Shown piece by piece: positions 1,114 to 25,559 of a stretch of DNA of 33,401 bases; position 1 is the stretch's first letter, and every line of letters starts with the position of its first letter. The stretch lies in IMG/VR virus record IMGVR_UViG_3300032286_000463, positions 1-33,401 of that record; one strand, given 5' to 3'. The DNA is from a virus. The position numbers and the translations under genes are program-made. Under the pieces are notes generated by a model. It saw only the letters and a list, made by a program, of their open reading frames with translations, had not been told where the DNA came from and ran no database searches.

Positions 1114-1397
1114 AAAAAGTAAAATTAATTAAACCTCAACAAACTAAGTTTAGTAGAGAGTATCAGTTACAAATTGGGAATTTTACTATTACACAAGGTG
1201 ATATCATTAAGATAGATGGAGAACACGGTGGTAAATTTAAATTTAGTGCTGTTGTAACTAATACTGAAAATGGTAAAGTTTGGGTAGATTGTTTTGACGT
1301 TCACAAAAAGTCTATGGGGGCTTATCGCTCCTACTCAATAGACAGGGTAAAACGTATACCAACAAAACGAGGAAAGCAAAAGAAAAATGTCAATTGA
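1110..1397 (+). CDS. Conserved phage protein of unknown function (small beta-barrel-like)
   Basis: A 95-residue basic protein with alternating hydrophobic strands (FTITQGDIIKI, FKFSAVVTNT, KVWVDCFDV) and a final RSYSIDRVKRI strand followed by a Lys/Arg tail. The pattern suggests a small SH3- or OB-like barrel. I know of similar short proteins next to actinophage terminases but cannot assign a family with certainty. The start overlaps the upstream stop by four bases and the end overlaps the terminase small subunit start by eleven. Confidence 0.7.
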   Translation: MKKVKLIKPQQTKFSREYQLQIGNFTITQGDIIKIDGEHGGKFKFSAVVTNTENGKVWVDCFDVHKKSMGAYRSYSIDRVKRIPTKRGKQKKNVN

Positions 1398-1920
1398 AGA
1401 TTTAACAGTAGAGCATCTTGATGAGATGAACAAGGTTGTAGAGAAATATTTGCAAGGTGAGGAGCCTACTCAAATCTCTAAAGAACTTGCCTTACCTCGT
1501 CAAAAGGTTGTAGCCCACATTAATCAGTGGCGTGTAATGGCTTCTGACAATGCCGCTATTCGTGCTAGGGCAAAGGAAGCCTTGGTTGGTGCAGACACAC
1601 ACTATAACAAACTAATTAGTAAAGCATATGAAGTTATGGATGATGCTACTACTGTTGCTAATCTGGGTGCTAAGACCGCTGCAATTAAACTTGTTATGGA
1701 TATTGAGAGTAAACGTATAGACATGCTACAAAAGGCTGGTCTACTTGAGAACAAAGAACTTGCAGAAGAGATGCTAGAAATTGAACGTAAGCAGGATATC
1801 CTTGTTGGTATTCTTAGAGATATTGCAAGTGAATACCCACAGATTCGTGATGAGATTATGCGTAGACTATCCTCAGTATCTAAAGAACAAGAGGTAATAA
1901 CAATTGTCAATGTTCAATGA
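1387..1920 (+). CDS. Terminase small subunit
   Basis: A 177-residue protein with an N-terminal helix-turn-helix (about residues 25-48: GEEPTQISKELALPRQKVVA) and a long alpha-helical, charged C-terminal part suited to oligomerisation. It lies immediately upstream of and overlaps the large terminase subunit by 17 bases. Small terminase subunits of tailed phages recognise packaging sites on DNA and form rings. The identification rests on gene order, size and HTH rather than a specific motif. Confidence 0.75.
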   Translation: MSIEDLTVEHLDEMNKVVEKYLQGEEPTQISKELALPRQKVVAHINQWRVMASDNAAIRARAKEALVGADTHYNKLISKAYEVMDDATTVANLGAKTAAIKLVMDIESKRIDMLQKAGLLENKELAEEMLEIERKQDILVGILRDIASEYPQIRDEIMRRLSSVSKEQEVITIVNVQ

Positions 1921-3700
1921 TTTTCTTGAAGTACTGAAAAGTAATGTCTTTGCAGAGATGCCAGTAGACGTTAAGACATTTGTCGAAGGTGAAGACTATC
2001 TGCAGCAACCACCACTATCACAAATTCAGTACGACATCGTAGAGGCTATGAGCCAAATCTACAAGTTGGAAGAGGTCATTGAAATCCTAGGGGAAACAGA
2101 GGGTCGTAGATACTACAATAAGTATACAAAGAACGAAGTTATCCTACAACTTGGCAAGGGTTCTGGTAAAGACTTTGTATCTACAGTTGCTTGTTGCTAC
2201 ATCGTTTATAAATTACTTTGTCTTAAAGACCCTGCTCGTTATTTTGGAAAGCCTACTGGTGACGCTATTGATATTATCAACATTGCGATTAACGCACAAC
2301 AGGCTAAAAACGTTTTCTTTAAAGGCTTTAAGAATAAGATTGAACGCTCTCCATGGTTTGCTGGAAAGTATTATGCAAAGGTAGACAGTATTGAATTTAA
2401 TAATGCTATCACTGTTTACTCTGGTCACTCTGAACGTGAGTCTCACGAAGGTCTTAACCTTATCCTTGCGGTATTGGATGAGATTTCTGGATTTGCTAGT
2501 GAGAATAGTACTGGCAATGACCAAGGAAAAACTGCTGACAATATTTATAAAGCCTTTCGTGCTTCCGTAGACTCTCGTTTTCCTGACCTTGGCAAGGTAG
2601 CATTGCTATCATTTCCTCGTTATCCTGGAGACTTTATCTCTCAAAGATACGATGCAGTTATTGCAGATAAAGAAGTGGTGACAAAGAAACATAAGTTTGT
2701 TATGAATCCAGAACTACCAGAAGACACAGAAGGAAATACACTAGAAATTGAGTGGGATGAAGATAACATTTTGGCATACAAGTTTCCTGGAATGTTTGCT
2801 ATCAAAAGACCTACATGGGTGGTAAATCCTACTCGCAAAATTGATGATTTTAAGTTAGCGTTTTATACAGACCTTGGAGATGCCATGATGCGTTTTGCTT
2901 GTGTTCCCACCTATGCTTCCGATGCTTTCTTCAAGCAACAGGAAAAGGTTCGTGCAACAATGACGATAACAAACCCTATTGATTCTAATAAAAGATTTAT
3001 GGATTCATTCAAGCCAGACCCAGATAAAAAATATTTTGTCCATGCTGACCTTGCACAAAAACATGACAAGTGTGCTGTGGCTATTGCTCACGTTGAGAAA
3101 TGGGTAAATGTCCAGGTAGTTAAAGATTACGCACAAGTAATGCCTATTGTAGTGGTAGATGCAGTAGTATATTGGGAGCCAAGAATTGAAGGTCCTGTCA
3201 ATCTTTCAGAAGTAAAACAGTGGATTCAAAATTTACGCAGAATAGGATTTGATTTAGGCATGGTATCCTTTGACCGCTGGCAATCCTTTGACATACAAAA
3301 CGAACTGAAGTCTGTTGGTATAAAGACTGAGACTGTATCTGTTGCTAAAAAACACTATGAGGATATGGCTATGCTTGTATATGAAGAACGCCTTGCTATG
3401 CCAGCCATAGAGTTACTATTTGAAGAATTAACAGAGTTAAAAATTATGAGGGGTAACAAGGTAGACCACCCTAGAAAGTCTTCTAAAGACCTTGCAGACG
3501 CTGTTTGTGGTGCTATTTTTGGTGCTATATCACATACAGTAAAAGATAATAATCAGATGGTTGAAATTCATACATTCCGTGATAAAAAGAAAGTCGAAGA
3601 CATGCATGAATGGGACAAGACTACAATTATTGAAAAGAATAGACCGAATCAAAAAGACTTAGATGCATACTTCAAACAGTTTAATATAAACATAATGTAA
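1904..3700 (+). CDS. terL: Terminase large subunit (packaging ATPase-nuclease)
   Basis: A 598-residue motor protein that pumps DNA into proheads and cuts concatemers. The ATPase half shows a Walker A-like loop LGKGSGKD (83-90) and a Walker B strand LILAVLDE (186-193) ending in the catalytic Asp-Glu. The nuclease half shows the RNase H-like acidic residues: Asp in FVHADLAQKHDK (382), Asp in MVSFDRWQS (457) and Asp in KDLADAVCG (529 or 532). The length is normal for the family. It follows the small subunit by overlap and is the strongest functional anchor in the window. Confidence 0.97.
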   Translation: MSMFNDFLEVLKSNVFAEMPVDVKTFVEGEDYLQQPPLSQIQYDIVEAMSQIYKLEEVIEILGETEGRRYYNKYTKNEVILQLGKGSGKDFVSTVACCYIVYKLLCLKDPARYFGKPTGDAIDIINIAINAQQAKNVFFKGFKNKIERSPWFAGKYYAKVDSIEFNNAITVYSGHSERESHEGLNLILAVLDEISGFASENSTGNDQGKTADNIYKAFRASVDSRFPDLGKVALLSFPRYPGDFISQRYDAVIADKEVVTKKHKFVMNPELPEDTEGNTLEIEWDEDNILAYKFPGMFAIKRPTWVVNPTRKIDDFKLAFYTDLGDAMMRFACVPTYASDAFFKQQEKVRATMTITNPIDSNKRFMDSFKPDPDKKYFVHADLAQKHDKCAVAIAHVEKWVNVQVVKDYAQVMPIVVVDAVVYWEPRIEGPVNLSEVKQWIQNLRRIGFDLGMVSFDRWQSFDIQNELKSVGIKTETVSVAKKHYEDMAMLVYEERLAMPAIELLFEELTELKIMRGNKVDHPRKSSKDLADAVCGAIFGAISHTVKDNNQMVEIHTFRDKKKVEDMHEWDKTTIIEKNRPNQKDLDAYFKQFNINIM

Positions 3701-8632: not shown

Positions 8633-8854
8633 ATGTTAATTAAATCACTAGAGAAAATGGAAGCAATTGTAGAAAACAATAAGTTTCTATCGTGGGATGG
8701 CTGGACAGTTCTAGAACTAAAAAGGTCTGACGTGGCTTGGATGAAGCCAAATGCTAAGTTCATCAATAACGCATGGTATATTGCTAATCGTTTTGATATC
8801 AATTCAGATGGCTGGAATATACCTGCTAGTTTGGTAAAGAAGAATGACAAATGA
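8633..8854 (+). CDS. Hypothetical protein with a Trp-rich core
   Basis: A 73-residue protein starting MLIKSLEKMEAIVENN. The ATG at 8633 follows AGAAAGGTGA, so the longer in-frame start at 8576 inside the previous gene is rejected. It contains FLSWDGWTVLELKRSDVAWM and NNAWYIANRF. The pattern resembles short conserved actinophage proteins; no function is known. It overlaps the WhiB gene by eleven bases. Confidence 0.68.
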   Translation: MLIKSLEKMEAIVENNKFLSWDGWTVLELKRSDVAWMKPNAKFINNAWYIANRFDINSDGWNIPASLVKKNDK

Positions 8855-9134
8855 AAACTGGAAAGATGAAGGTCTTTGCGTTGGAGATGATGTCAATCTA
8901 TTCTTTGACAAATATGAAGAAGACGTTGAAGTAAGAAAAGAAACAGATTCTTTGTGTGGTATTTGCCCTATGGCTAGAACTTGTTTTGCTGTTGGAGTAT
9001 CCCAGAAAGCAGTTGGAGTTTGGGGTGGTGTATACTTAGATAGAGGCAAAGTGTCTAGGGAATTCAACAAGCATAAGACTAAAGAAGACTGGGGAAATAC
9101 CTGGCAAAATTTAACAATAGATAGAGAGTACTAA
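8844..9134 (+). CDS. whiB: WhiB-family iron-sulfur regulator
   Basis: A 96-residue protein with the full WhiB signature: Cys12, then Cys38-x2-Cys41-x5-Cys47 for a [4Fe-4S] cluster, followed by GVWGG (58-62) and a basic tail (DRGKVSREFNKHK). WhiB proteins exist only in actinobacteria and their phages and work with the primary sigma factor; phage copies can alter host transcription. It lies inside a tightly packed operon, overlapping both neighbours, so it is probably co-expressed with them. The C-terminus after the basic tail is longer than in minimal WhiBs. Confidence 0.95.
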   Translation: MTNENWKDEGLCVGDDVNLFFDKYEEDVEVRKETDSLCGICPMARTCFAVGVSQKAVGVWGGVYLDRGKVSREFNKHKTKEDWGNTWQNLTIDREY

Positions 9135-9803: not shown

Positions 9804-9825
9804 GCATTAAATAAGGAGAAATAAA

Positions 9826-10110: not shown

Positions 10111-10124
10111 TCTTAACAAGCATT

Positions 10125-10155: not shown

Positions 10156-10190
10156 GCTATAATAAATATGTACCTGCCAATTGGGGGTAC
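10135..10190 (+). promoter_or_regulatory. Promoter overlapping the terminator, with 5' hairpin, for hsp20
   Basis: TTGCAA (10135-10140) sits in the terminator loop; 17 bases on is TGC-TATAAT (-10 at 10158-10163, extended). A hairpin GTACC (10170-10174) / GGTAC (10186-10190) begins at the predicted +1. AAAAGGAG precedes the gene. Confidence 0.7.
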
Positions 10191-10222
10191 AAAAATAACT
10201 CGCTTAAAAGGAGATGATATAA

Positions 10223-10639: not shown

Positions 10640-10684
10640 ATCGGATGTCCTGGGTATGACGATAAACTGCCTATCTAACAGATG

Positions 10685-10693
10685 TGGTATAAT
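10685..10693 (+). promoter_or_regulatory. Extended -10 promoter giving a leaderless mRNA
   Basis: TGGTATAAT ends at 10693, and the ATG of the Dps-like gene starts at 10700, where transcription is expected to begin. No ribosome binding site is present. The in-frame ATG at 10682 lies upstream of the -10 and is therefore rejected. Confidence 0.65.
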
Positions 10694-10699
10694 AATACA

Positions 10700-11155
10700 A
10701 TGGAAAATTTACTAGAACAATTAAGAACGCTACTGGCAGACAACGTTGCCCTTAAATTTAAAGCACATGGATATCATTGGAATGTAGAAGGGGATGACTT
10801 CCAACAGTTCCACGAATTTTTTGAAGACATTTATTTAAATTATGATGCAGCAACAGATACTTATGCAGAGTGGCTTCGTGCATTAAGACAGTATGCACCA
10901 TATAGATTAACAGATTTCTTCGACATGTCAACAGTTCCAGAGCCAGTTATTGTTGGTGACCCACAGCCTATGTTGAATGACCTTTATCTTTCTATTGAGG
11001 CACACATTGAGGCACTGGTTGCAGCAAGTGACCTTGCCAACGAAGCCAAGCAGTATGGTCTAGCAAATTTCCTTTCTGACCGTCAGACTGCATCACAAAA
11101 GTTTTGCTGGCAAATTCGTGTCAGTATGGAAAATGAAATGGAGATGGAAGGCTAA
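10700..11155 (+). CDS. dps: Dps/ferritin-like protein
   Basis: A 151-residue four-helix-bundle protein. The helix pair containing KFKAHGYHWNVEGDDF, then FHEFFEDIYLNYDAATDTYAEW, carries the His, His, Asp and Glu ligands in the Dps ferroxidase arrangement. Dps proteins store iron, detoxify peroxide and bind DNA as dodecamers. It lacks the basic N-terminal tail that some Dps use for DNA binding. A leaderless transcript is predicted. The stop overlaps the next start (TAATG). A plain ferritin-like role without DNA binding is possible. Confidence 0.85.
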   Translation: MENLLEQLRTLLADNVALKFKAHGYHWNVEGDDFQQFHEFFEDIYLNYDAATDTYAEWLRALRQYAPYRLTDFFDMSTVPEPVIVGDPQPMLNDLYLSIEAHIEALVAASDLANEAKQYGLANFLSDRQTASQKFCWQIRVSMENEMEMEG

Positions 11156-12408: not shown

Positions 12409-12411
12409 CCC

Positions 12412-12440
12412 TTGACAAACACCGCAATATGCGGTAAAAT
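12412..12440 (+). promoter_or_regulatory. Promoter with palindrome in spacer; leaderless start
   Basis: TTGACA (12412-12417), 17 bases, TAAAAT (12435-12440). The ATG at 12447 falls at the predicted +1. The spacer contains ACCGCA-ATA-TGCGGT (12421-12435), a perfect 6-bp inverted repeat suited to an operator. Confidence 0.7.
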
Positions 12441-12446
12441 ATATAT

Positions 12447-12698
12447 ATGAGTAAACCTGATTGGGCTACACGCCTACAACGCACATTTAAACGTAAGTAT
12501 GACCTTGGATATGAAGAAGGTTATAAAATAGGATGGGGAGAGGGATTTGAAGTGGGAAGTAAAAAAGCACTTGCAGAGCAACGTAAAGTTATGATTGCTG
12601 CCATTCAAAAAGATATTAACAAGAATAAGCAACACTATAGTCCAGGAGTCCTTGCAGGTCTTCAGGCATCAATCACAATGATTAGGAAGATGAATTAA
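12447..12698 (+). CDS. Small protein of the GYxxGYxxG repeat type
   Basis: An 83-residue basic protein. The core DLGYEEGYKIGWGEGFEVGSK has aromatic-Gly pairs every four residues, giving a helix with a Gly face. The same pattern recurs in the products at 25537 and 25764, so the three may be distant paralogues. The rest is a basic helix. The start is leaderless behind a good promoter. The next gene overlaps by one base. Confidence 0.65.
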   Translation: MSKPDWATRLQRTFKRKYDLGYEEGYKIGWGEGFEVGSKKALAEQRKVMIAAIQKDINKNKQHYSPGVLAGLQASITMIRKMN

Positions 12699-13030
12699 TG
12701 ATTAAATCAGTTAAAATTGGTCCACAAAGATTTGAGATACTACAGCGTGACCCAAAGCATGATGGTATGCTTAGTGATGGTGCTTATGGATATACTCTTG
12801 ATGCATCTAATCTAATTGTCATAGACTCTGGACTTGGCAACGGTAAGCAGCAAGTAACTCTTTTGCATGAAATTCTACACGCTATTAGAATGAATAATGA
12901 TGGTATGCCAAGACCTAATAAAGAAGATGACTTTGATGCATGGGAGCATTACTTCATTGCTATGTATGAAACTGGATTGTTGTCGGTACTTAAAGACAAT
13001 CCTAAGTTAGTAGAATTTTTCACAAAGTGA
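12698..13030 (+). CDS. Small HExxH metallopeptidase-like protein
   Basis: A 110-residue protein with a zincin motif LLHEILHAIRM (about 55-65: His-Glu-x-x-His), preceded by a strand NLIVIDSGLGNGKQQ and followed by DDFDAWEHYFIAMYETGLL, where a downstream Glu could be the third ligand. Similar mini-zincins are found in phages and resemble ImmA/IrrE-type or SprT-type domains reduced to the core. Substrate unknown. It is part of a chain of overlapping small genes. Confidence 0.72.
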   Translation: MIKSVKIGPQRFEILQRDPKHDGMLSDGAYGYTLDASNLIVIDSGLGNGKQQVTLLHEILHAIRMNNDGMPRPNKEDDFDAWEHYFIAMYETGLLSVLKDNPKLVEFFTK

Positions 13031-13176
13031 TTACTAAGAAAGCCTTGACTTGGATTCTTGTTTATGGTATCCTAGTAATATCAACTGTTCTATGGTTTAT
13101 TATAAATAACAGAACAGAAAACTGTTGGGACAATTACACCACAGAACATGAAGCAATCATTAACTGCGAGGAGTAG
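13027..13176 (+). CDS. Small single-pass membrane protein with two Cys
   Basis: A 49-residue protein using GTG at 13027 (GTGA overlap with the previous stop). A membrane helix (about 7-26, LTWILVYGILVISTVLWFII) is followed by ENCWDNYTTEHEAIINCEE, with two cysteines 14 residues apart that could form a disulfide outside the cell. I recognise this Cys-Trp-x-x-Tyr-x-Thr-Glu layout as a recurring actinophage micro-protein. Function unknown. Confidence 0.68.
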   Translation: MITKKALTWILVYGILVISTVLWFIINNRTENCWDNYTTEHEAIINCEE

Positions 13177-13178
13177 TA

Positions 13179-13346
13179 ATGGAACATCTTCTAGAAATAA
13201 CTTTTGATATACATCATGTTATTGCAGAATTTTTTTGGAATGCAATCTTTGCAATTGGGGTATACCTATTTTCAAAAGCAAGAACATTGAGCAAGATTCA
13301 CAAGTATGTGGATAGCAAACATAATATAGAACACGAGGAGTACTAA
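13179..13346 (+). CDS. Small membrane protein ending HEEY
   Basis: A 55-residue protein starting MEHLLEITFDIHH. A membrane segment near 15-31 (IAEFFWNAIFAIGVYLF) is followed by KARTLSKIHKYVDSKH and an acidic His-containing end. Similar short membrane proteins occur beside the previous type in actinophages. GAGGAG lies eight bases upstream. The end overlaps the next start. Confidence 0.66.
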   Translation: MEHLLEITFDIHHVIAEFFWNAIFAIGVYLFSKARTLSKIHKYVDSKHNIEHEEY

Positions 13347-13678
13347 TGGAGCAAGAAATAGAACTAACCCTGCCAGTCATAGAAAAACTAATGGAACAAA
13401 GTCCATTTGAAAAGGCTGTTTCAGAAAAATACATCGAAGCAGAAGACCTTTTGCTTAGTAAACATAGAGATTACGGACCAAAAAATATTTCTGGTAGTCC
13501 AGGAGGAGCATTGAATGGACTTAGAGTACGCATACATGACAAGTTGGCTCGCATTAATAACCTTTACGACTCTGGTGCTACCCCCGAAAACGAAAGTCTT
13601 AGGGATTCTTTTATTGATATGGCAAACTACGCAATTATCGCATTACTCGTTTTAGATGGGGAGTGGGACAATGATTAA
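13346..13678 (+). CDS. DUF1599/Nmad1-like protein
   Basis: A 110-residue helical protein with KHRDYGPKNISGSPGGALNG, LRVRIHDKLARINNL and SLRDSFIDMANYAIIA, the conserved blocks of DUF1599, also called nucleotide modification associated domain 1. Family members are all-alpha and are linked by genome context to modified DNA bases. No base-modifying enzyme is seen next to it here, so the role remains open. It overlaps groES. Confidence 0.8.
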   Translation: MEQEIELTLPVIEKLMEQSPFEKAVSEKYIEAEDLLLSKHRDYGPKNISGSPGGALNGLRVRIHDKLARINNLYDSGATPENESLRDSFIDMANYAIIALLVLDGEWDND

Positions 13679-13982
13679 AGCACCAGAAGATATTATCATT
13701 ATTAAATTAGAGAAAAAAGATACTGGACCAGAACAAACTAAGAGTGGTCTTTTAGTGCTTAGAAATGAAATGGATGAACCAAAAAACATCGGTACAGTCT
13801 ATGCTGTAGGCGAAGGTAGGCAACTAAAGAGTGGTGTCCGTGTTCCAATGGATGTCAAGGTTGGAGATAAGATTATGTTTAATCCAAACGCAACTATGAA
13901 GTTTAAGCATGAAGAAGAAGATTATTTGTCATTATTTAGCGTTAGTGTTTTAGCCATTCTAGGTGACGAAGATAGTGTATAA
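13671..13982 (+). CDS. groES: GroES-type co-chaperonin
   Basis: A 103-residue Cpn10 fold protein. ATG 13671 is chosen because GGGAG is about eight bases upstream; an in-frame ATG at 13656 lies within the preceding gene. Typical elements are the early strand EDIIIIKL, the mobile loop region with TKSGLLVL, the GTVYAVGEG strand, and VKVGDKIMFNPNA. Phage GroES analogues, such as T4 gp31, replace the host cap on GroEL to fold the capsid protein. No groEL is in this window, so it would work with host GroEL. Confidence 0.9.
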   Translation: MIKAPEDIIIIKLEKKDTGPEQTKSGLLVLRNEMDEPKNIGTVYAVGEGRQLKSGVRVPMDVKVGDKIMFNPNATMKFKHEEEDYLSLFSVSVLAILGDEDSV

Positions 13983-14004: not shown

Positions 14005-15033
14005 ATGAAAAAAGCATTAATAACAGGTATAACTGGACAGGATGGCTCTTACTTAGCAGAACTGCTACTTGAAAAGGGTTATGAGGTTCATGGTATTAAG
14101 AGACGCTCATCGTCTTTTAACACTGAAAGAGTAGATTATATTTACGAAACAAGTAAAAACTTTTACTTACATTATGGAGACCTAACTGATTCAACTAATC
14201 TTATTAGATTAATTAGTGAAATAAAGCCTGATGAAATATATAACCTTGGTGCTCAGTCCCATGTTCAGGTTTCATTTGAAACTCCAGAGTACACCGCAAA
14301 TAGCGATGCTATGGGCACTCTACGCCTCCTAGAAGCCATTAGAATACTAGGTATGGAAAATACTGTACGTTTTTATCAGGCTTCTACATCCGAGATGTTT
14401 GGACTGGTTCAAGAGATTCCTCAAAAAGAAACTACACCATTCTATCCTCGTTCTCCGTATGGAGTAGCAAAATTATATGGTCATTGGATTACTAAAAACT
14501 ATCGTGAAGCATATGGAATGTATGCATGTAGCGGTATTCTTTTTAACCATGAATCTCCAAGACGTGGAGAAACATTTGTTACTCGTAAGATTGTTTTAGG
14601 ATTAGATGCAATATCTAAAGGCAAACAATCAGTATTAAAATTAGGTAACTTAAATGCTTTGCGAGACTGGGGTCATGCAAAAGATTTTGTTCGTGCTATG
14701 TGGCTAATGCTTCAGCAAGATACGCCAGATGACTTTGTTATTGCTACTGGAGAACAATACTCAGTCAAGCATTTTGTAGAAGAATCTGGAAAACACTTTG
14801 GAATGAACATTGTTTGGCAGGGTAGTGGACTAAATGAAATAGGTATCGATACAATTACAGGGAATACTATTATTGTTGTAGATAAAAAATATTTTAGACC
14901 AGCGGAAGTTGAAACACTTCTTGGTGATGCAACCAAGGCTAAAAATATCTTAGGATGGGTTCCAGAAATATCATTTGAAGAACTAGTAGAAGATATGTGC
15001 GTAACAGAAAGAGATTTTAATGTCATTAAATAA
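14005..15033 (+). CDS. gmd: GDP-mannose 4,6-dehydratase
   Basis: A 342-residue short-chain dehydrogenase/reductase that converts GDP-D-mannose to GDP-4-keto-6-deoxy-D-mannose. The NADP-binding loop is [11 protein letters not shown] (7-17). The active site shows STSE (127-130) and Tyr152-x3-Lys156 in [30 protein letters not shown] is the typical substrate-binding block. The length matches the family. It opens a sugar-nucleotide and glycosyltransferase operon; GDP-mannose must come from the host, since no manB or manC is seen. Confidence 0.95.
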
Positions 15034-16042
15034 ACTAAAATTATTTCATTATACAATGCATCAAGGAGTTTTAGATGACGTTGCTGCTATATTTGCAAAT
15101 ATTAAAAATATAGAAGTTAAAAGTTTTTCACCTATAAACAAGCAGCATGAAAATTATATTATAAGTCACGATAGGGCTAAGGTTCTTTGGGAAGAACATA
15201 AAGAAGATTTTTTAAATTCAGACATTTTATTCTTTTCAGATAATGGTGCATCTTTTAGACCAGTGCTAGAAAATATGAATAAAATTAAAGATACCCAAAA
15301 AATTTTTGTATGGTTAGTTCATAGATTTGATTACGCTAATTACGGTGACACTGATTTTTATAACTTGTTGCTAAAATATAAAGACGATAAAAGAATTACA
15401 TTTTTATATGCAAATAATTATGAAAAAAAGTACATGAATGAAAAATTAGGAAACAATTTTCAAGATATGAAATTCTTTACTTTTTATGGCAAAAGAAATA
15501 AAAAAGATTTTAATTTAAAAAATCAAGAGGACCATAAAAATAAACTATTTGTTATGAATTATCAAAATGAAAAAGACTTTTATCCACTTTATGAAAACTT
15601 AAAACAACTTGGAATAGATTTTTATACAAGAACCTATGTTCCGAGAGAAGATTTTGCTGGTCCTTTTGACATAGAGACCTGTTCTGCCATATTACATATT
15701 CCATATATGGTTAGCACAGTTGCCCAAAGAGAGTACATGTCATTGGGAAAAACTTATATTTTGCCTACTGAAAGTTGGATAGCAAAAAACAATGTTAATT
15801 ATCCATTAATATGGCATGAAGCAGGGCACGGATTATTGCAATATAGCGAATTTTATAAAGAAGAAAACAAAGATTTGTTTGTATACTTTGATGACTTATC
15901 AGAAATTCCAGAAATATTGGAAAACAAAGAATTATTAATTGAAAAAGGTAAAAAATGTTTTGAAAGAACAGAGACTGATAGACAAAACAATATTGCTCTT
16001 TTAGAAAACATAATTTTTCAGAATGAAAGGTTTGAGGTTTAA
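15020..16042 (+). CDS. Probable glycosyltransferase (unassigned, GT-B-like)
   Basis: A 340-residue protein overlapping gmd by 14 bases. No sharp catalytic motif was found. The layout of alternating strands and helices, ending in the segment [19 protein letters not shown] and a helical region, is compatible with a GT-B sugar transferase. Context between gmd and fcl supports a role in the same glycan. The gene is markedly more AT-rich than gmd and fcl, suggesting separate acquisition. Confidence 0.5.
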
Positions 16043-16043
16043 A

Positions 16044-16994
16044 ATGATTTTACCAATGAAGTTAGATAGTAAAATTTTTGTTGCTGGTCATAATGGTTTA
16101 GTTGGGTCAGCAATTGTTCGTAAATTAAAAGAACAAGGATATACAAACATTATTACTATGCCAAAGAGCAAACTTGATTTGCGTGACCAGAAGATGGTTG
16201 CCTGGTTTTTCTCCGTGTATAAGCCAGAGTATGTATTCCTGGCTGCTGCAAAAGTTGGCGGTATTAACTACAACAAGGTAGCACCTGCAGATTTTATCTA
16301 TGATAATCTACAAATTCAGAATAATGTTATTCATAATGCTAATAAGTATAATGTAACTAAATTATTATTCCTTGGCTCTGCCTGTATCTATCCTAAGATA
16401 ACTCCACAACCAATAAAGGAAGAGTATCTTCTTAGTGATTACCTTGAGCCAACCAATGAGGGCTATGCTCTTGCAAAGATTGCTGGACTTAAGATGTGTA
16501 ACTACTACCGCCAGCAGTACGGATTAACTGCAATCTCCCTGATACCAGCAAACCTGTATGGTGTCAATGATAATTTTAATATTGAACAGTGCCATGTCAT
16601 TCCAGCAATGATTGATAAGTTTGTTAAAGCAAAGGAAACAGGAGAGTCTGTTACATTGTTTGGAGATGGGTCTCCGACAAGAGAGTTTCTGTATGTTGAT
16701 GACTTAGCAGAAGCGTGTATTTTCTTGATGAATACATACGATAGCCCAGAGCATATCAACATCGGCTCCTCCGAAGAATACACAATCCTTGAATTGGCAA
16801 ATCTAATTGCAGACAAGGTTGGATTTACTGGTGACATTATTTGGGACACAGAAAAGCCAAATGGTACACCAAAACGTAAATTAGATATATCTAGACTGGA
16901 GTCTTTGGGTTGGAAATCTAGCATTGCCTTAGATGAAGGCTTGACAAGGACTGTTGACTGGTATCTAGAGACTGGTGGCAAACGTAATGCGTAA
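16044..16994 (+). CDS. fcl: GDP-L-fucose synthase-type epimerase/reductase
   Basis: A 316-residue enzyme starting at ATG 16044, with GAGG six bases upstream. It is predicted to act on GDP-4-keto-6-deoxymannose by 3,5-epimerisation and NADPH reduction. The cofactor loop is GHNGLVGSA. Ser112, Cys114, Tyr141, Lys145 and His184 appear in GSACIYP, YALAK and QCHVIPA. These correspond to Ser107, Cys109, Tyr136, Lys140 and His179 of E. coli Fcl at a constant offset. LEPTNEGYALAKIAG is the family hallmark. A ColC-like colitose synthase is homologous and cannot be excluded, given the next gene. Confidence 0.92.
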   Translation: MILPMKLDSKIFVAGHNGLVGSAIVRKLKEQGYTNIITMPKSKLDLRDQKMVAWFFSVYKPEYVFLAAAKVGGINYNKVAPADFIYDNLQIQNNVIHNANKYNVTKLLFLGSACIYPKITPQPIKEEYLLSDYLEPTNEGYALAKIAGLKMCNYYRQQYGLTAISLIPANLYGVNDNFNIEQCHVIPAMIDKFVKAKETGESVTLFGDGSPTREFLYVDDLAEACIFLMNTYDSPEHINIGSSEEYTILELANLIADKVGFTGDIIWDTEKPNGTPKRKLDISRLESLGWKSSIALDEGLTRTVDWYLETGGKRNA

Positions 16995-18141
16995 TTGGAA
17001 ACTGATGGAACAGACTATCACAAAACTTGATAGATTAAAGTTGGCATCATTTGTTCTGACCGCAGACCAATTTACCAATGGTAAAAAGGTTAAAGAGTTT
17101 GAGAAGCAATGGAGTGAGTGGCTTGGATGTAAGTATTCTCTTTTTGTTTCTTCTGGTAGCACCGCAAATTTTTTGCTTGTTGCTGCTATTAAAGAAAAAT
17201 ATAATCTAAAAAACGGTGATAAAGTTGTTGTTCCAGCATGTACTTGGGTAACTAACGTTGCACCAATTATCCAGTTGGGCTTAGAGCCAATCTTTTGTGA
17301 TATCAATATGGATAACTACAGTTTTGATATAGACAACCTTAAAAAGATAAAAAAGCAACATCCAGATGTAAAGATGATTTTTGTTACACACCTACTTGGG
17401 TTTACTGCAGACAATAAAGTTTACAGTGATATTTTTCCAGAGGCACTAATCATTGATGATGTCTGTGAATCTCATGGATGTAGGGATGCTGATGGCTACA
17501 AGGTAGGTGCAAACAGCCTTGGGGCTACTTTTAGTTTTTATTTTGGACATCATATGACCACCATTGAGGGCGGTATGGTATCGACCAATGATGCAGAACT
17601 ATACGACCTAATGAAAATGAAACGTAGTCATGGAATGGCTAGGGAGTCTATTAATTCTGATAAATATGCGGAACAATATCCAGACATTCAACGTTCATTC
17701 TTGTTTATTACAGATGGGTACAATTTTAGAAACCATGAAATTTGTGCGGTATTGGGGCTTGAACAACTAAAAAGATTAGACGCTATGATTGATAAACGTA
17801 GAGAAAACTACAATGCTTTTATCGAACTAATTAAGCAATACGATGACTTATTCTATATTTCAGGAGATAATCCAGGAAACAGTAGTTTTTGTTTTCCAAT
17901 TATAGCAAAAACAAAAGAAACCTATGATAAATTTGTGGTGCTGCTTAAAGAGCATAATATAGAATATAGACCAGTAGTTGGCGGAAATTTGCTGAGACAT
18001 CCATTCTTAAAAGGATATAGGTTAAATAAGAAAAACTCTAATGCAGATATTATTAATGACAATGGAGTGTATTTAGGAAATAGTCATTTTGTTAATAATA
18101 AACAAATTAAATTACTTGGAAAAATATTAAAGGAATTATAG
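16987..18141 (+). CDS. DegT-fold sugar 3-dehydratase, ColD-like (active-site His)
   Basis: A 384-residue PLP-fold enzyme started at ATG 16987. VSSGSTANFLL and ACTWVTNVAPI are typical DegT/DnrJ/EryC1 blocks, and IDDVCESHG holds the PLP-ring Asp. Where aminotransferases have the PLP lysine, this protein reads FSFYFGHHMTTIEGGM. The first His (188 from this start) replaces the Lys, as in GDP-4-keto-6-deoxymannose 3-dehydratase (ColD, His188) and the E1 dehydratases. It should thus remove the 3-hydroxyl rather than add an amino group. It acts on the Gmd product if the substrate matches. The end block YRPVVGGNLLRH also fits ColD. Confidence 0.8.
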   Translation: MRNWKLMEQTITKLDRLKLASFVLTADQFTNGKKVKEFEKQWSEWLGCKYSLFVSSGSTANFLLVAAIKEKYNLKNGDKVVVPACTWVTNVAPIIQLGLEPIFCDINMDNYSFDIDNLKKIKKQHPDVKMIFVTHLLGFTADNKVYSDIFPEALIIDDVCESHGCRDADGYKVGANSLGATFSFYFGHHMTTIEGGMVSTNDAELYDLMKMKRSHGMARESINSDKYAEQYPDIQRSFLFITDGYNFRNHEICAVLGLEQLKRLDAMIDKRRENYNAFIELIKQYDDLFYISGDNPGNSSFCFPIIAKTKETYDKFVVLLKEHNIEYRPVVGGNLLRHPFLKGYRLNKKNSNADIINDNGVYLGNSHFVNNKQIKLLGKILKEL

Positions 18142-18890
18142 TGCCAATTTCATTCAATAGTTTAGGAAACTATGGAAGATTAGGAAACCAGATGTTTCAA
18201 TACGCAGCCCTAAAAGGTATTGCTAATAAAATAAACACTAATTATATTATTCCAGAGTCAAACAATGAAATGTCTTCTCAACAATTAACAGATATTTTTT
18301 TATTAAATAATAATGTTGGATATGGAATAACAAACTATAAACAGGTGCAAGAACTTGATTTTAAATATGATAATTTATTTATACAAACAATAACGGATAA
18401 TACTGATATAAAAGGATATTTTCAATCTGAGAAATATTTTAAACATATTGAGCAAGACATTAAAAATGATTTTACATTTAAACAAACATATTCCATTCCA
18501 GACAAAAAATATGTTTCAATACATGTTAGACGCGGAGACTATTTATTGTTGCAAAATTATCATCCAACATGCTCTATAGATTATTATAAAAATGCTATGA
18601 CTCTATTTCCAAATCATAACTTTCTAGTTATTTCTGATGATATTAATTGGTGCAAAAATCAAGAAATTTTTGCTAATTGTGAGTTTTGGGAAGGTAAAAA
18701 CATTGCTCACGACCTATATGTTATGACAAAAGCAGAACACAATATTATTGCAAATAGTAGTTTTAGTTGGTGGGGTGCTTGGTTAAATCAAAATGCAGAT
18801 AGGATTGTTGTGGCACCAAAACAATGGTTTGGTAATGCAATTCAAAACGATACAAAAGACCTGTATTGTTTTGGCTGGATAATTCTATGA
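18141..18890 (+). CDS. GT11 alpha-1,2-fucosyltransferase-like enzyme
   Basis: A 249-residue glycosyltransferase using GTG at 18141 (overlapping the previous TAG, AAAGGA upstream). It carries GT11 motifs: GRLGNQMFQYA (12-22), the GDP-binding HVRRGDY (128-134) and NSSFSWWGAWL (205-215). GT11 enzymes transfer L-fucose from GDP-fucose in alpha-1,2 linkage to galactose, giving the H-antigen disaccharide; colitosyltransferases are close relatives. Slightly short for the family. Donor genes lie immediately upstream. Its AT content is high compared with gmd. Confidence 0.9.
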   Translation: MPISFNSLGNYGRLGNQMFQYAALKGIANKINTNYIIPESNNEMSSQQLTDIFLLNNNVGYGITNYKQVQELDFKYDNLFIQTITDNTDIKGYFQSEKYFKHIEQDIKNDFTFKQTYSIPDKKYVSIHVRRGDYLLLQNYHPTCSIDYYKNAMTLFPNHNFLVISDDINWCKNQEIFANCEFWEGKNIAHDLYVMTKAEHNIIANSSFSWWGAWLNQNADRIVVAPKQWFGNAIQNDTKDLYCFGWIIL

Positions 18891-18896
18891 TATAAT
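18888..18896 (+). promoter_or_regulatory. Extended -10 promoter inside the glycan cassette
   Basis: TGATATAAT (18888-18896) overlaps the GT11 stop. An AT-only inverted repeat AAATAT (18899-18904) / ATATTT (18912-18917) follows, then GGGAG before the GTG at 18938. Confidence 0.5.
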
Positions 18897-18937
18897 TAAA
18901 ATATCTTAATAATATTTAAAATAAGGGAGATAATGAA

Positions 18938-19888
18938 GTGAAAAAAAAATTTGTAATATGGGGACATCCATTACACACACACACCCATTCATATATTCAT
19001 AATGGATACTATAAAGCACTAAATGCTTTGGGATATGATGTAGTTTGGTTAGAAGATAACGAAGAAAATTCTAATGGAGATTTTGAAAATTGCATCTTTA
19101 TTACAGAAAAACAAGTAATGAGATTTATGCCTGTTACAAATTCATCAGTTTATTTAGTTCATAATCTTTATGGTCACGATGTTTTCAGTTCAGATTTTAA
19201 TAGATTTGCTGGATTACCAGCAAATTTTTATAATTTTTTAGTTTACCATGAAAACTACGACTGGAATGATGAAGTAGAAAAGATTAGTGACACATTATGG
19301 TGGCATCAAAAAAATAAAACTTTTGTAACAATGTGGGCAACTGACCTACTACCATATGAAATAGACCTTCTAGAACCAGTTTTATATGATGCAAATAGAG
19401 AAAACATTAATTTTGTTGGAAGTATCCAAGGAACAAATATTCAAGATTTTGCAAAAATATCTGAAAACAATGGAAAGAAATTTCAACATTTTGGTGGCTA
19501 TGGAAGATTAGAACACACAGTACTCGATGAAGAAAACTATACATCACATTTTTATAATGAAAACTCTGCTATTAATGTAATTAGAAATTCTTATATTTCT
19601 TTTGACATAAGAGAAGGTGGTCATCAAACTAATGGATATAATTCTTGTAGATTATTTAAAAATTTAAGTTATGGAATGCCAACTGGAACAAATGCGGTAA
19701 AAAGTAAAATATTGTTTGGCGACCACATAGTTGCAAATGAAAACTTAAATGACTTATATATTGAGATAGAGGAGTTCTATAAAAATTCTACTTATGACTC
19801 TATTAAAAATTCTATGAACTTTATAAAAGAAAATCATACTTATATAAATAGAGTAAAAGATATACTTTATATTTTAGAAAGAGTATAG
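18938..19888 (+). CDS. Probable GT-B glycosyltransferase
   Basis: A 316-residue protein using GTG 18938, with GGGAG eight bases upstream; the nearby ATG at 18933 is out of frame. It starts KKKFVIWGHPLHTHTHS, with mid-part INFVGSIQG and C-terminal SFDIREGGHQTNGYNSCR and FKNLSYGMPTGTNAVKS, which resembles the donor-binding domain of GT-B enzymes with their Glu-rich end. No family number can be given. Its N- and C-terminal segments recur in the broken copy at 20583-20753. Confidence 0.65.
   Translation: MKKKFVIWGHPLHTHTHSYIHNGYYKALNALGYDVVWLEDNEENSNGDFENCIFITEKQVMRFMPVTNSSVYLVHNLYGHDVFSSDFNRFAGLPANFYNFLVYHENYDWNDEVEKISDTLWWHQKNKTFVTMWATDLLPYEIDLLEPVLYDANRENINFVGSIQGTNIQDFAKISENNGKKFQHFGGYGRLEHTVLDEENYTSHFYNENSAINVIRNSYISFDIREGGHQTNGYNSCRLFKNLSYGMPTGTNAVKSKILFGDHIVANENLNDLYIEIEEFYKNSTYDSIKNSMNFIKENHTYINRVKDILYILERV
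19823..19854 (+). repeat. 32-bp direct repeat, copy 1
   Basis: Identical over 32 bases to 20679-20710. It encodes IKENHTYINRV near the C-terminus of the 18938 glycosyltransferase. Confidence 0.9.
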
Positions 19889-19890
19889 TA

Positions 19891-20586
19891 ATGCAAAATA
19901 AAAAAATTTGTATTATAAACATTGCAACCAACAAATATATTAAATTTATAGAACCTCTTTGGGAATCTATTAATAATAATTTTTTAAAAGATTGTGTGGT
20001 AGAATCTTTATTATTTACAAACCATGACATAAAACCAATTACTAAAAATGGAAAAGTTTCTAAAATTGAGCATGAACCATTTCCTACACCAACATTAATG
20101 AGATATCATTATATTAATAGCGAATCGGATTATTTAAAACAATTTGATTATTGTTTTTACTTAGATGCAGATATGCTTATTGAAAGTAAAGTTGGTGAGG
20201 AGATTTTAGGAGATTTAGTAGCAATTATTCATCCAGGATTTTTTAACAAAAGCCCCAATGAATTTACTTATGAAAGAAATGAGGCTTCTTTAGCATATAT
20301 TCCTATCGATAATGGGAATAAGTATTATGCTGGAGGTTTTAATGGTGGTACACCAGAACAATTTTTAAAAATGTCTGAAACTATTTTAAAAAACATTGAC
20401 ATAGATAAAAAGAATGATATAATTGCTATATGGCATGATGAAAGTCATCTTAATCGTTATTTGTTGGATAATCCACCAACACTAGAACTTAATCCAGACT
20501 ATTGTTATCCAGAAAGTTGGAACATTCCATTTGAAAGAAAAATATTGGCACTAGATAAAAATCACGAGGAGGTAAGGTCTTTATGA
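19891..20586 (+). CDS. GT6 glycosyltransferase (ABO blood-group transferase family)
   Basis: A 231-residue retaining glycosyltransferase. It is strikingly like the catalytic domain of vertebrate ABO transferases: FYLDADM with DxD (Asp92, Asp94), HPGFF (114-118), FTYERNEASLAYIP, YYAGGFNGG (145-153), IWHDESHLNRYLL (catalytic-type Glu184) and the closing KNHEEVR. GT6 enzymes add GalNAc or Gal in alpha-1,3 linkage to Gal, often requiring an alpha-1,2-fucose, and a GT11 gene lies just upstream. The known bacterial GT6 enzymes I recall have NxN instead of DxD; this one keeps DxD, suggesting metal dependence. A GT6 has been noted before in a cyanophage. Confidence 0.92.
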   Translation: MQNKKICIINIATNKYIKFIEPLWESINNNFLKDCVVESLLFTNHDIKPITKNGKVSKIEHEPFPTPTLMRYHYINSESDYLKQFDYCFYLDADMLIESKVGEEILGDLVAIIHPGFFNKSPNEFTYERNEASLAYIPIDNGNKYYAGGFNGGTPEQFLKMSETILKNIDIDKKNDIIAIWHDESHLNRYLLDNPPTLELNPDYCYPESWNIPFERKILALDKNHEEVRSL

Positions 20587-20753
20587 AAAAAAATATTATA
20601 TGGGGGCAGCCATATTTAAATTTAAAAAAAGATTATTCAAATGCAACGGAACAAAAGATTAGGTTAGCAATGAATTACATAAAAGAAAATCATACTTATA
20701 TAAATAGAGTTAAATCTTTATTTATTGTTTTAGGAGAAAATAATGAAAATTAA
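20583..20753 (+). pseudogene. Internally deleted remnant of the 18938 glycosyltransferase
   Basis: A 56-codon ORF. Its start MKKNIIWGQP matches the N-terminus (KKKFVIWGHP) and its end MNYIKENHTYINRV matches the C-terminus of the 18938 enzyme, while some 260 central codons are missing. The DNA shares a 32-base identical block. This is a decayed duplicate. It overlaps both neighbours and may now only couple translation. Confidence 0.8.
20679..20710 (+). repeat. 32-bp direct repeat, copy 2
   Basis: Second copy of the repeat at 19823-19854, 856 bp downstream, in the remnant gene. A substrate for recombination that would delete the GT6 gene. Confidence 0.9.
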
Positions 20754-21540
20754 TTTTATAACAACGGTAGTAAATAGACCCAAATTTGTTGAAATACAAT
20801 ATTTATTATTTAAAAAATATTGCACTATAGATTTTGATTTTTATGTTATAGATGATTCACATAATAATAATTTGTCAATTGAATTTTACGATATTTGTAA
20901 TAAATACAATATTAATTATATCAAAAAAGAAAGTGTTAATCAAAAATTTACTAATCCAGGAATGAATAATAATCCAAATGATGACTGTGCCCATGCTGTG
21001 CAATGGACATACGACAATATTATTTTTAAAAATATGAAAGATGATTACGTTTTATTTTTAGATTCGGATATGTTTTTGATTGATTATTTTAATCCGATAG
21101 AATACCTAGAAGATTATGTTATGTGTGGATTAGAACAAATTAGGGAAACAGAAAATAAAAATAAATTAGTTGATTATATTTGGAATGGCATAATGTTTTT
21201 TAATATGAAAAAAATGTTAGAAATTAATGATTATCCAGATTTTTGGTGTGGAACAGTTTATGATATTCCTGTAGACGTTGGTGGGCAGTTGCACTTTTTC
21301 ATTAAAAATAATAATTTAAATTGGAAAAAAACTGACGTTTTGTATCCAGAAAAAATATTTAATTATGATGTAAAAGATATAATTGCTAATTTTGAATTTC
21401 ATTGCAATAAAAAATTCTTGCATTTTCATGCTGGAACAAATTGGCATTTAGATTGGAAAAATAAAAAAGATTTAGATTTTAAAAAAGCAGAAGTTTTTGA
21501 AAAAATAATTAATCAATATTTAGGGCATAATGAAAATTAA
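20743..21540 (+). CDS. GT-A glycosyltransferase
   Basis: A 265-residue protein with an N-terminal nucleotide-binding strand MKINFITTVVNRP, a DxD-type motif VLFLDSDMFLID near residue 110, and a C-terminal LHFHAGTNWHLDW where His/Asp residues could coordinate metal or the acceptor. GT2-like in layout; linkage and donor unknown. AGGAG lies upstream. It is very AT-rich and overlaps the next gene by eleven bases. Confidence 0.75.
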   Translation: MKINFITTVVNRPKFVEIQYLLFKKYCTIDFDFYVIDDSHNNNLSIEFYDICNKYNINYIKKESVNQKFTNPGMNNNPNDDCAHAVQWTYDNIIFKNMKDDYVLFLDSDMFLIDYFNPIEYLEDYVMCGLEQIRETENKNKLVDYIWNGIMFFNMKKMLEINDYPDFWCGTVYDIPVDVGGQLHFFIKNNNLNWKKTDVLYPEKIFNYDVKDIIANFEFHCNKKFLHFHAGTNWHLDWKNKKDLDFKKAEVFEKIINQYLGHNEN

Positions 21541-22201
21541 TTTATTAGATATTCCAGTATATTATATTTCTTTAGAAGACCAATATGAAACACATACAAG
21601 AATGAACAATATGTTAACTGAACTTGGTTTTAAAAATATTATAAAGTTTATTGTTCAAAAACATCCAAGTGGCAAAATTGTTGGTTGTGCAGACTCTCAT
21701 GCTCAAATATTTGAAATGAATCCTGAGACTCCTTTCATTATTTTAGAGGATGATTGTTTTTTGAATACAAACTTTGTAGCAGAAATAGACATACCAGACG
21801 ATGCTGATGCTCTATATTTGGGAGTTTCAAGATGGGCACGGTATTGCAATCTTTCTGGAGACTATCTTCATGCAAAACAAAAAGATAAGAACCTGTATCA
21901 GGTCTATAATATGCTGGCTACTCACGCTATCCTATACATCAATAAGGAATATATAAGTAATTGTAAAAGAATAGCAAGATGGTCTGCAAACAAAAATCAA
22001 CATTTAGATATTGGTTTTGCCGAAAGCCATAAATTCTATAATGTTTATTCATTTGATAAACCATTGTTTTATCAAGAAAGTAGCAGAGAGATTACTAATA
22101 AAAACATTAGTAGTTTTAATGGTCATAATGATGCTGCATATCATGGAATTAATGTTTTTTTAAATCAGATGACTGGGTTTTTTCCGCTACCTTTGATGTG
22201 A
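21530..22201 (+). CDS. GT25-like glycosyltransferase
   Basis: A 223-residue protein. VYYISLEDQYETHTRMNNML, KIVGCADSHAQIF and PFIILEDDCFLN follow the pattern of GT25 (LPS/LOS galactosyltransferase and collagen transferase) enzymes: an opening SL..R, the GC..SH block and the E-D-D metal site. GT25 enzymes commonly use UDP-galactose, which the downstream GalE could provide. AT-rich like its neighbours. Confidence 0.75.
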   Translation: MKINLLDIPVYYISLEDQYETHTRMNNMLTELGFKNIIKFIVQKHPSGKIVGCADSHAQIFEMNPETPFIILEDDCFLNTNFVAEIDIPDDADALYLGVSRWARYCNLSGDYLHAKQKDKNLYQVYNMLATHAILYINKEYISNCKRIARWSANKNQHLDIGFAESHKFYNVYSFDKPLFYQESSREITNKNISSFNGHNDAAYHGINVFLNQMTGFFPLPLM

Positions 22202-22231: not shown

Positions 22232-22924
22232 ATGAAAATTGGGTTAATTATTCCATGGAGAGAGCAACCATCTAGGATAAAAGCCTTTAAAAAGGTCTGT
22301 GAGTGGTACCAGGACAACCTTCCAGAAGCAAAAGTCTATCTTGTAGATAATGGCAATGAAACCTGGGAAATGTCTGCAACAAGAAATCTGGGGGTACGTT
22401 TAGCAGAACAAGACAACTGCGATGTTATTATAATCAATGATGCAGATACAATTCCACAGATAGGTCCGTTGAGAGAGGCTATTAATGATGCTTTTAAAGA
22501 CAATATGATTCATAATCCTTATACTATTTATACCCTTTTTGATAAATCTGAAACTGAATTACATTTAGAAAAAGGTGTTCCTTTAAATAAATTAAAATGT
22601 AGTGTTTTTGCAGATGTTGCCTGTTCTGGAACAATAGTTTTTACACCAAAGGCTTGGTGGGATTTAGGGGGTAATGATGAGAAGTTTATTAAATGGGGAT
22701 ACGAAGATACAGCACAAAATTTAGTTCATTTTGTTATTCATGGAACTAAAATTGTTAAACATACTGGAACTGTGTTTGCCTTTTCACATGAAGTCCAGGA
22801 TAGGTTAGAAAAACCTAGTGAGCAGTTGCTTAAGAATAGAAGTCTTTATAAAAGATATCTTGCTGTTTCAAAGGGTATGAATCCTAAAGAAAATATATTA
22901 GCATTAGTGAAATCAAAAGAATGA
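22232..22924 (+). CDS. GT-A glycosyltransferase (galactosyltransferase-like C-terminus)
   Basis: A 230-residue protein. LIIPWREQPSRIKAF opens the nucleotide fold, VIIINDADTIP carries DxD, and GGNDEKFIKWGYEDTAQNL is the Glu-Asp acceptor/catalytic block seen in galactosyl- and polypeptide GalNAc-transferase-type GT-A enzymes. The composition is less AT-rich than the preceding transferases. It overlaps the next gene (ATGA). Donor possibly UDP-Gal or UDP-GalNAc, by inference from GalE. Confidence 0.78.
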   Translation: MKIGLIIPWREQPSRIKAFKKVCEWYQDNLPEAKVYLVDNGNETWEMSATRNLGVRLAEQDNCDVIIINDADTIPQIGPLREAINDAFKDNMIHNPYTIYTLFDKSETELHLEKGVPLNKLKCSVFADVACSGTIVFTPKAWWDLGGNDEKFIKWGYEDTAQNLVHFVIHGTKIVKHTGTVFAFSHEVQDRLEKPSEQLLKNRSLYKRYLAVSKGMNPKENILALVKSKE

Positions 22925-24159: not shown

Positions 24160-24660
24160 ATGCAAACCTTTTTACCATTTAAGCAGTTCGATAAGTCTGC
24201 ACAAGCCCTAGATAATAAGAGATTAAATAAGCAAGTATTAGAGTGTTACCAGATTCTTAAGGTGTTGTCTAATGATGACCCACATGCTGCTTGGCGTAAT
24301 CATCCTGCTGTTAAGATGTGGCGTAACCATGAGGGACAGTTATGGCTGTACACTATGGCTATGGTTAAAGAAGCAGATATCCGTGGCATTAAGACTGATA
24401 AGAACGTTAGCAATCTTAATGAACTTAAGGCTGTGGCTGGGGATAGTTGGGGGTATTCAATTACTCCGTGGTCTAAAGACCCTTTCGTAATGTCTAGACT
24501 AACTACTAGCCATAAGGCTAACCTGTATACTAAAGACCCTGTGTATTATTTTGAGTTCTTTAGTGCTTTGGCTACATCTAATCCTTGTTGTCCTGAGCGT
24601 AAAGAACCTTGTAAGTACTACTGGGTTGCACATGACACACAGTTTAAGGTGGCTGCATAA
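24160..24660 (+). CDS. MSMEG_6728-like protein (pyrimidine dimer glycosylase-like family)
   Basis: A 166-residue protein. MQTFLPFKQFDKSAQALDNK, RLNKQVLECYQILKVL, WRNHPAVKMWRNHEGQLWLY and the C-terminal CCPERKEPCKYYW match a small family annotated MSMEG_6728 and sometimes related to pyrimidine dimer DNA glycosylase. A role in DNA repair is suggested by that annotation but not established from sequence. It has its own promoter. The coding strand here is T/G-rich, unlike the A-rich genes to the left. Confidence 0.7.
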   Translation: MQTFLPFKQFDKSAQALDNKRLNKQVLECYQILKVLSNDDPHAAWRNHPAVKMWRNHEGQLWLYTMAMVKEADIRGIKTDKNVSNLNELKAVAGDSWGYSITPWSKDPFVMSRLTTSHKANLYTKDPVYYFEFFSALATSNPCCPERKEPCKYYWVAHDTQFKVAA

Positions 24661-25559
24661 TGAATATTCTTGTTACTGGTGCGGCTGGGTATGTTGGTTC
24701 TCATATTGTTAGGTTGTTGGAAGACACGGAGCATAAGGTAATACTAACTGATTATAGGTTGGACGGTATTGATTTAGCCAATGACTATTTAGATTTAAAA
24801 TCATTGTTTATGAATAATGATATAGATGTTGTTATCCATACTGCCGCTAAAAAGGCGGTAGGTGAATCTGTAGACAATCCAGAGTACTATTATGAACAAA
24901 ACATACAAGGTATGAATAACCTATTGAAAGTTATGAAAGAATATAATGTTAAGAAGATTATTTTTTCATCTTCTGCTGCTGTCTATGGTGTGCAGGGTTC
25001 TGGTATAATTAAAGAAGATAGTGTTTGTGAGCCTATCAATCCTTATGGGGAGACAAAACTTATTAATGAGTGGATGCTATCTAATGGTGCTTCTTGGGGA
25101 TTACAGGCGATTAGTCTGAGATTCTTTAATGTTGCTGGGGCAGGTTGGGAAGACCTAAAAGATACTGGTAATGCTAACTTAATTCCTATTATAGAATCTA
25201 ATTTGGCTAATGGTGTTGCTACAAAGGTTTTTGGCACAGATTATGACACGCCTGATGGTTCTTGTGTTAGGGATTATGTTCATGTTTTAGATGTTGCTAA
25301 TGCACATCTGTTGGCTTTGGATGGCTTTAAAAATGGTCATCAAGTCTTTAATGTGGGTACAGGTAAAGGCTATAGCGTTCTAGAGATATTAAATGCTTTA
25401 AACGCAGATTATGAGGTTGTCCCAAGAAGACTTGGAGACCCATCTAGTTTGTTTGCAGATGTAGGTAAGATTAAGGATACTTTGGGGTGGGAGTCTAAAT
25501 ACACTCTCGAAGATATATTGAACGTAGGAAAGATAAATGAAACTATTAAAGATATTTAA
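24660..25559 (+). CDS. galE: UDP-glucose 4-epimerase
   Basis: A 299-residue SDR epimerase interconverting UDP-Glc/UDP-Gal and possibly the GlcNAc/GalNAc pair. Motifs: TGAAGYVGSH for NAD, HTAAKKAVGESV, SSSAAVYG, Tyr-x3-Lys in NPYGETKLINEW, and RFFNVAGA. It is about 40 residues shorter than E. coli GalE, with trimmed loops but a complete active site. It starts on the previous stop. Donor supply for the GT6, GT25-like and other transferases upstream is the likely purpose. Confidence 0.92.
   Translation: MNILVTGAAGYVGSHIVRLLEDTEHKVILTDYRLDGIDLANDYLDLKSLFMNNDIDVVIHTAAKKAVGESVDNPEYYYEQNIQGMNNLLKVMKEYNVKKIIFSSSAAVYGVQGSGIIKEDSVCEPINPYGETKLINEWMLSNGASWGLQAISLRFFNVAGAGWEDLKDTGNANLIPIIESNLANGVATKVFGTDYDTPDGSCVRDYVHVLDVANAHLLALDGFKNGHQVFNVGTGKGYSVLEILNALNADYEVVPRRLGDPSSLFADVGKIKDTLGWESKYTLEDILNVGKINETIKDI

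Follow-up and report, generated by a model that had tools for sequence, protein, structure and literature searches.

A phage genome fragment of 33,401 nucleotides (IMG/VR virus record IMGVR_UViG_3300032286_000463, hereafter the window) encodes a glycosyltransferase of family GT6, the ABO family, within a glycan cassette that extends from the GDP-mannose 4,6-dehydratase (GMD) gene through a GT25-like gene (positions 14005 to 22201, Table 1). As a GT6 the enzyme is unremarkable and has the normal metal-binding version of the active site. The unusual part is its carrier, whose backbone, judging from protein sequence kinship, is that of actinobacteriophages akin to Streptomyces phages. This kind of GT6 is already known; some interest is added by the carrier phage and by the cassette at a variable site of its genome. 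An earlier note on this DNA had described a GT6 with an intact DxD motif in a phage. The virus record and its terminase gene agree with the phage origin; the note had overlooked that the phage is probably not a cyanophage, as well as the cassette around the gene.

Table 1 Genes of the cassette and of the surrounding backbone (positions in the window)
Feature	Position	Strand	Remarks
Probable small terminase subunit	1387..1920	+	Matches Streptomyces and Rhodococcus phages only; some records label it small terminase
Large terminase subunit, backbone marker	1904..3700	+	53-55% identical to terminases of Streptomyces phages (94-99% of query covered)
WhiB-family protein, actinophage marker	8844..9134	+	Domain 8859-9032, 41.3 bits vs cut-off 23.6
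Cpn10-like co-chaperonin	13656..13982	+	Left border of the variable site
GMD	14005..15033	+	Opens the cassette; TIGR01472 (NCBIfam) E 3e-171, above cut-off
340-aa protein	15020..16042	+	Without Pfam, NCBIfam or PHROG family; GT-B-like is a guess
GDP-L-fucose synthase-like protein (Fcl or ColC type)	16023..16994	+	PDB GDP-fucose synthetase 1bsv E 4e-91
ColD-type PLP-dependent GDP-4-keto-6-deoxymannose 3-dehydratase	16975..18141	+	Closest PDB WbdK/ColD 2gms E 7e-57
GT11 (alpha-1,2-fucosyltransferase family)	18141..18890	+	Pfam PF01531 E 9.6e-24; HxRRGD motif
GT-B-like protein	18938..19888	+	Weak Glyco_trans_1_2 match, E 0.022; relatives in 28 viral GT6 loci
GT6 (ABO-family) glycosyltransferase	19891..20586	+	DxD Asp92-Asp94; Glu184 at catalytic position; AGG donor motif 147-149
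56-aa ORF	20583..20753	+	Probably what a deletion left of a second gene resembling 18938-19888
Possible GT-A-like glycosyltransferase	20743..21540	+	Without family match; DSD motif by eye; related genes in 49 viral GT6 loci
GT25-like glycosyltransferase	21530..22201	+	Pfam E 1e-4, just under cut-off
GT7-like (galactosyltransferase-like) gene	22232..22924	+	Assigned to the backbone locus
UDP-glucose 4-epimerase GalE	24660..25559	+	Possible donor supply; NCBIfam TIGR01179 292 bits, cut-off 262

The GT6 ORF starts at an ATG and encodes 231 residues. Its product matches Pfam Glyco_transf_6 (PF03414) with E 2.6e-46 (158 bits vs a cut-off of 25) and PHROG 3317 glycosyltransferase with E 1.4e-61, yet remains below the cut-off of NCBIfam Gltr_6 (E 8e-64; 215 vs 250). 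In a search of PDB sequences, the best match is Bacteroides ovatus BoGT6a (4ayj, E 2e-49); the alpha3GT entries range from E 8e-38 to 2e-35 and human ABO is at E ~5e-36. The motifs HPGFF, FTYER, AYIP, GGFxGG (GGFNGG here) and WHDESHLN, earlier likened to vertebrate ABO transferases, are all present in the alignment. The AlphaFold model (pLDDT 93.7, pTM 0.89) has a predicted GT-A fold with the GT6 active-site residues, including WHDE with the catalytic Glu, and superposes on BoGT6a with a Z score of 34.0 (1.4 Å over 225 residues) and on human GTA/GTB with Z ~31. The Pfam match, the superposition and Asp92-Ala-Asp94 bear out a GT6 with an intact DxD. The protein is a bona fide GT6, and chance resemblance is excluded.

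In the active site, Asp92-Ala-Asp94 is aligned with human Asp-Val-Asp and with Asn95-Ala-Asn97 of BoGT6a, while Glu184, His114 and Thr126 match BoGT6a Glu192, His122 and Thr134. Ala147-Gly148-Gly149 is identical to BoGT6a Ala155-Gly156-Gly157 and aligned with human Leu266-Gly267-Gly268, so that the Ala and Gly previously read at human positions 266 and 268 are confirmed as Ala147 and Gly149. The latter is the small residue of human A-type enzymes (Gly268).

The GT6 of Prochlorococcus phage P-SSM2 (AAX44645) is 52% identical to that of the window, the identity reaching up to 68% with contig L034. P-SSM2 and related cyanophage contigs share DxD and YYAGGFNGG with the window, and have GMD, fucose synthase, GT11, GT25-like and epimerase genes as common neighbours. 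However, P-SSM2 has a cyanophage backbone, and its cluster is without a ColD-type gene in the stretch compared. BoGT6a (PDB 4ayj, 4cj8) has the same fold, catalytic residues, Ala-Gly-Gly and catalytic-domain-only size, but it carries NxN, is metal independent, shows 42% identity and belongs to another clade. The Parachlamydia acanthamoebae enzyme (PMC3961637) has DxD like the window GT6, in a bacterial chromosome instead of a phage; it is likened here by description, the sequences compared being those of Chlamydiota relatives. Human ABO (PDB 1wsz) and bovine alpha3GT (PDB 1gwv) share DxD and WHDESHLN with the window GT6, which also has the C-terminal KNHxxVR of human ABO and the Gly at human position 268. 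In contrast, identity to the human catalytic segment is 36%, Ala replaces Leu266, and vertebrate GT6s are type II membrane proteins. The C-terminal Arg was discarded as a separator of DxD from NxN enzymes, since it also aligns in 29 NxN rows.

The earlier note considered the intact DxD noteworthy because bacterial GT6s usually carry NxN. The premise agrees with a 2014 paper, in which bacterial GT6s are mostly NxN, two bacterial DxD cases are known and GT6 genes are reported in two cyanophages (PMC3961637). The conclusion is not supported. DxD is found in 95 of the 96 other phage or viral GT6s read, and at least 34 of the bacterial loci read have DxD against 44 with NxN, proportions that are not population frequencies because the viral loci compared are the 80 nearest out of 486 and the genome scan used two patterns, one of which favoured DxD. 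The sole viral NxN belongs to an unverified 7.7-kb fecal contig, and all cyanophage GT6s examined, including that of P-SSM2 (annotated as GT6 in GenBank), have DxD. Bacterial DxD enzymes are common in Dependentiae, Chlamydiae and Verrucomicrobia. As a separate observation, GT6 genes with DxD occur in many genomes of Candidatus Dependentiae and Chlamydiae (loci L094-L128), far more than the two bacterial cases cited in 2014.

The phylogeny is consistent with these counts. In a 133-row tree, whose bootstrap is not fully settled and whose motif columns were kept in, NxN forms one derived clade, the DxD and NxN states need a single change, and the window GT6 lies inside a clade (42 rows, support 99/90) made up of phage DxD enzymes alone. 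An AU test on a 61-row tree rejected forcing the window GT6 with the non-DxD rows (p-AU 0.004). Hence, the phylogenetic check proposed earlier places the enzyme outside the NxN bacterial clade of BoGT6a type, from which its DxD also separates it. The counts and the tree together rule out that DxD is exceptional in the window GT6. A supposed oddity thus becomes the rule: phage GT6s keep the DxD site. The metal-free NxN form looks like one derived bacterial branch, which bears on the placement of vertebrate-like GT6s in the family.

Among tested GT6s, DxD goes with metal dependence and NxN with independence, and metal dependence was shown for the DxD enzyme of P. acanthamoebae (PMC3961637). Since the window GT6 has DxD and is set apart from the NxN enzymes, a need for Mn2+ or Mg2+ is likely by analogy but not special to it, DxD being the rule among phage GT6s. 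The Ala/Gly residues, equal to those of the GalNAc transferase BoGT6a, weakly hint at a GalNAc donor; Ala-Gly-Gly does not settle Gal vs GalNAc, and Gly at position 268 is insufficient for donor specificity. The literature searched yielded no phage GT6 that had been assayed. Several cyanophage-type records (L082, L040, L046) contain two GT6 genes each. The second has a Gln-Gly-Cys or Gln-Gly-Ser donor motif and falls in a clade with long branches, so a single phage may hold GT6s of differing donor specificity.

The backbone argues for an actinophage. WhiB, regarded as an actinophage indicator (PMC10202952), is over the cut-off in 19 of 32 related records tested, and together with the terminase kinship it identifies the window as an actinobacteriophage related to Streptomyces phages. 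The host of this uncultured phage is probably an actinobacterium, as its relatives suggest. The records with the nearest GT6 genes are of cyanophage type (psbA on 18 of 42, gp23 on 8 of 42). A cyanophage origin of the window was considered and appears unlikely: the terminase, the small-terminase candidate and WhiB point to an actinophage. Neither psbA nor T4-like gp23, which are Kyanoviridae marks, was found on the 33-kb fragment, and the terminase is of another lineage. No actinophage appears among the 71 phage records matching GT6 by tblastn, a set that may omit records very close to the window, and no actinobacterial locus, judged by record title, among the best 80 genome GT6 loci.

The cassette occupies a variable site of this backbone. 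From Cpn10 to the gene at 22921, thirteen sister loci (two from one contig) have 0.7-4.1 kb with the GT7-like gene, and the window has 8.9 kb; the GT7-like gene is counted with the backbone because it is common to sister phages without the cassette. The independent contig L264 has the same Cpn10-GMD junction, with 88% nucleotide identity, and continues after GMD directly with a fucose-synthase-like gene, without the 340-aa gene. The left edge of the cassette is therefore real and its content variable among near relatives. GC is 23-30% in the glycosyltransferase and unassigned genes of the cassette, 34-38% in the GMD, fucose-synthase and ColD-type genes, and 36-43% in backbone genes. Through the 56-aa ORF that looks like the remnant of a second 18938-19888 gene, a 64-nt direct repeat (19814-19877 and 20670-20733, 83%) lies on either side of the GT6 gene and may mark how GT6 was inserted.

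That the contig was mis-assembled, a cyanophage-type glycan cassette being joined in silico to an actinophage fragment, is improbable. It would fit the drop in GC inside the cassette and a search of 31 + 41 records from this lineage and related ones, in which GT6 was absent although the same search recovers the window's own. However, the L264 junction recurs independently, cassette genes abut or overlap like one operon, sister gene order is kept on the right side, and L387, a phage record with backbone kinship, has GMD, fucose synthase, a ColD-type gene and GT11. The small chance of mis-assembly concerns the middle part, because L264 backs the left junction and not GT6, and no other contig of the lineage was found with GT6. 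In L387 (a 100-kb virus record), these genes lie at 6070-10500, again without GT6, and the kinship to the window amounts to 44% for terL and 50% for the TUDOR-protein. L387 is a possible second actinophage with the pathway.

The fucose-synthase-like product reaches 422 bits against NCBIfam Fcl, below the cut-off of 500, and this lone gene could serve fucose or colitose. The ColD-type product has His where aminotransferases have the PLP Lys, at the position altered in 3b8x and 2r0t; the His argues for a ColD-type dehydratase, and an aminotransferase was rejected. The 340-aa protein has tblastn matches at 22-46% in 19 GT6-bearing viral loci; single-sequence patterns found no relatives in viral contigs. 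In the fetched flanks of 90 viral or phage GT6 loci, GT11 is near GT6 in 75, a GT25-like neighbour in 79 and a ColD-type match in 15, while GMD (75) and fucose-synthase-like (80) matches include weak ones to other epimerases. A swappable glycan cassette that also occurs in marine cyanobacterial phages sits at a variable site of an actinophage. It is best read as laterally shared, from a pool spanning phages, cyanophages above all.

In the explanation we consider fairly probable, the cassette caps a (deoxy)fucosylated galactoside, in the style of blood groups, in a WhiB-bearing actinobacteriophage. GMD and the fucose-synthase-like enzyme would make GDP-fucose or, with the ColD-type dehydratase, GDP-colitose. 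GT11 would transfer L-fucose or its 3-deoxy form, colitose, to the galactose of a beta-galactoside, and GT6, as a soluble, catalytic-domain-only, retaining enzyme with a working DxD site, would then attach GalNAc or Gal through an alpha-1,3 linkage, in the manner of BoGT6a and human ABO. UDP-Gal could come from GalE, and the neighbouring transferases may extend the glycan. The cassette would have been inserted from the shared phage pool into the variable site, and the glycan probably alters the surface of the infected cell or the virion. BoGT6a uses 2'-fucosyl acceptors (PMC3961637), and a published description of cyanophage genes for GMD, fucose synthase and fucosyltransferase assigns them to cell-wall modification (PMC9602691). 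A simple hydropathy scan saw no transmembrane segment in cassette proteins, and neither a flippase nor a priming transferase was recognised within the window; the products would therefore use host carriers or cytoplasmic targets, such as virion proteins. Counting against this explanation is Phe64, where 128 of 133 aligned GT6 rows have a Trp that touches UDP in BoGT6a.

It is possible, though not likely, that GT6 needs no fucosylated acceptor, as is the case for alpha3GT and Forssman synthase, or uses another donor, GT11 being just cassette company. Vertebrate GT6s do include enzymes with non-fucosylated acceptors (PMC3961637), gene order in the cassette is fluid, and some GT6 loci are without GT11 or GMD in the fetched flank. 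Nevertheless, GT11 is close to most GT6 genes, and BoGT6a, its nearest structural counterpart, takes fucosylated acceptors and has the same AGG motif. It is very unlikely that modified phage DNA, and not a glycan of the surface or virion, is what the transferases glycosylate. A protein with DUF1599 (nucleotide modification associated domain 1) is encoded at 13346-13678, and DNA protection is among the proposed roles of phage glycosyltransferases (PMC10202952). But sister phages that lack the cassette have DUF1599 too, galactoside and fucoside glycans are the known setting of GMD, fucose synthase, GT11 and GT6, and the window, which is only part of a genome, showed no recognisable gene for base hydroxymethylation.

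Within the preferred reading, a capped (deoxy)fucosylated galactoside, it is rather doubtful that a true ABO-like cap, in which fucosyl- or colitosyl-galactose bears alpha-1,3-linked GalNAc or Gal, is made by a phage of Gram-positive actinobacteria through a cassette traded with cyanophages. If so, the same cassette would work in hosts with quite different envelopes, and its target would be a phage-made or generic carrier, such as the virion, and not LPS. With an actinophage as carrier, phages of unrelated hosts are seen to harbour a glycan cassette of blood-group-like type, which makes action on the host surface vs the virion testable. Beside the cassette, genes for Hsp20, a ferritin/Dps-like protein, the DUF1599 nucleotide-modification-associated protein and Cpn10 are clustered at 10223-13982 and kept in many sister phages. 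A pyrimidine-dimer DNA glycosylase-like gene (PF03013, 24160-24660) is likewise kept in sister phages.
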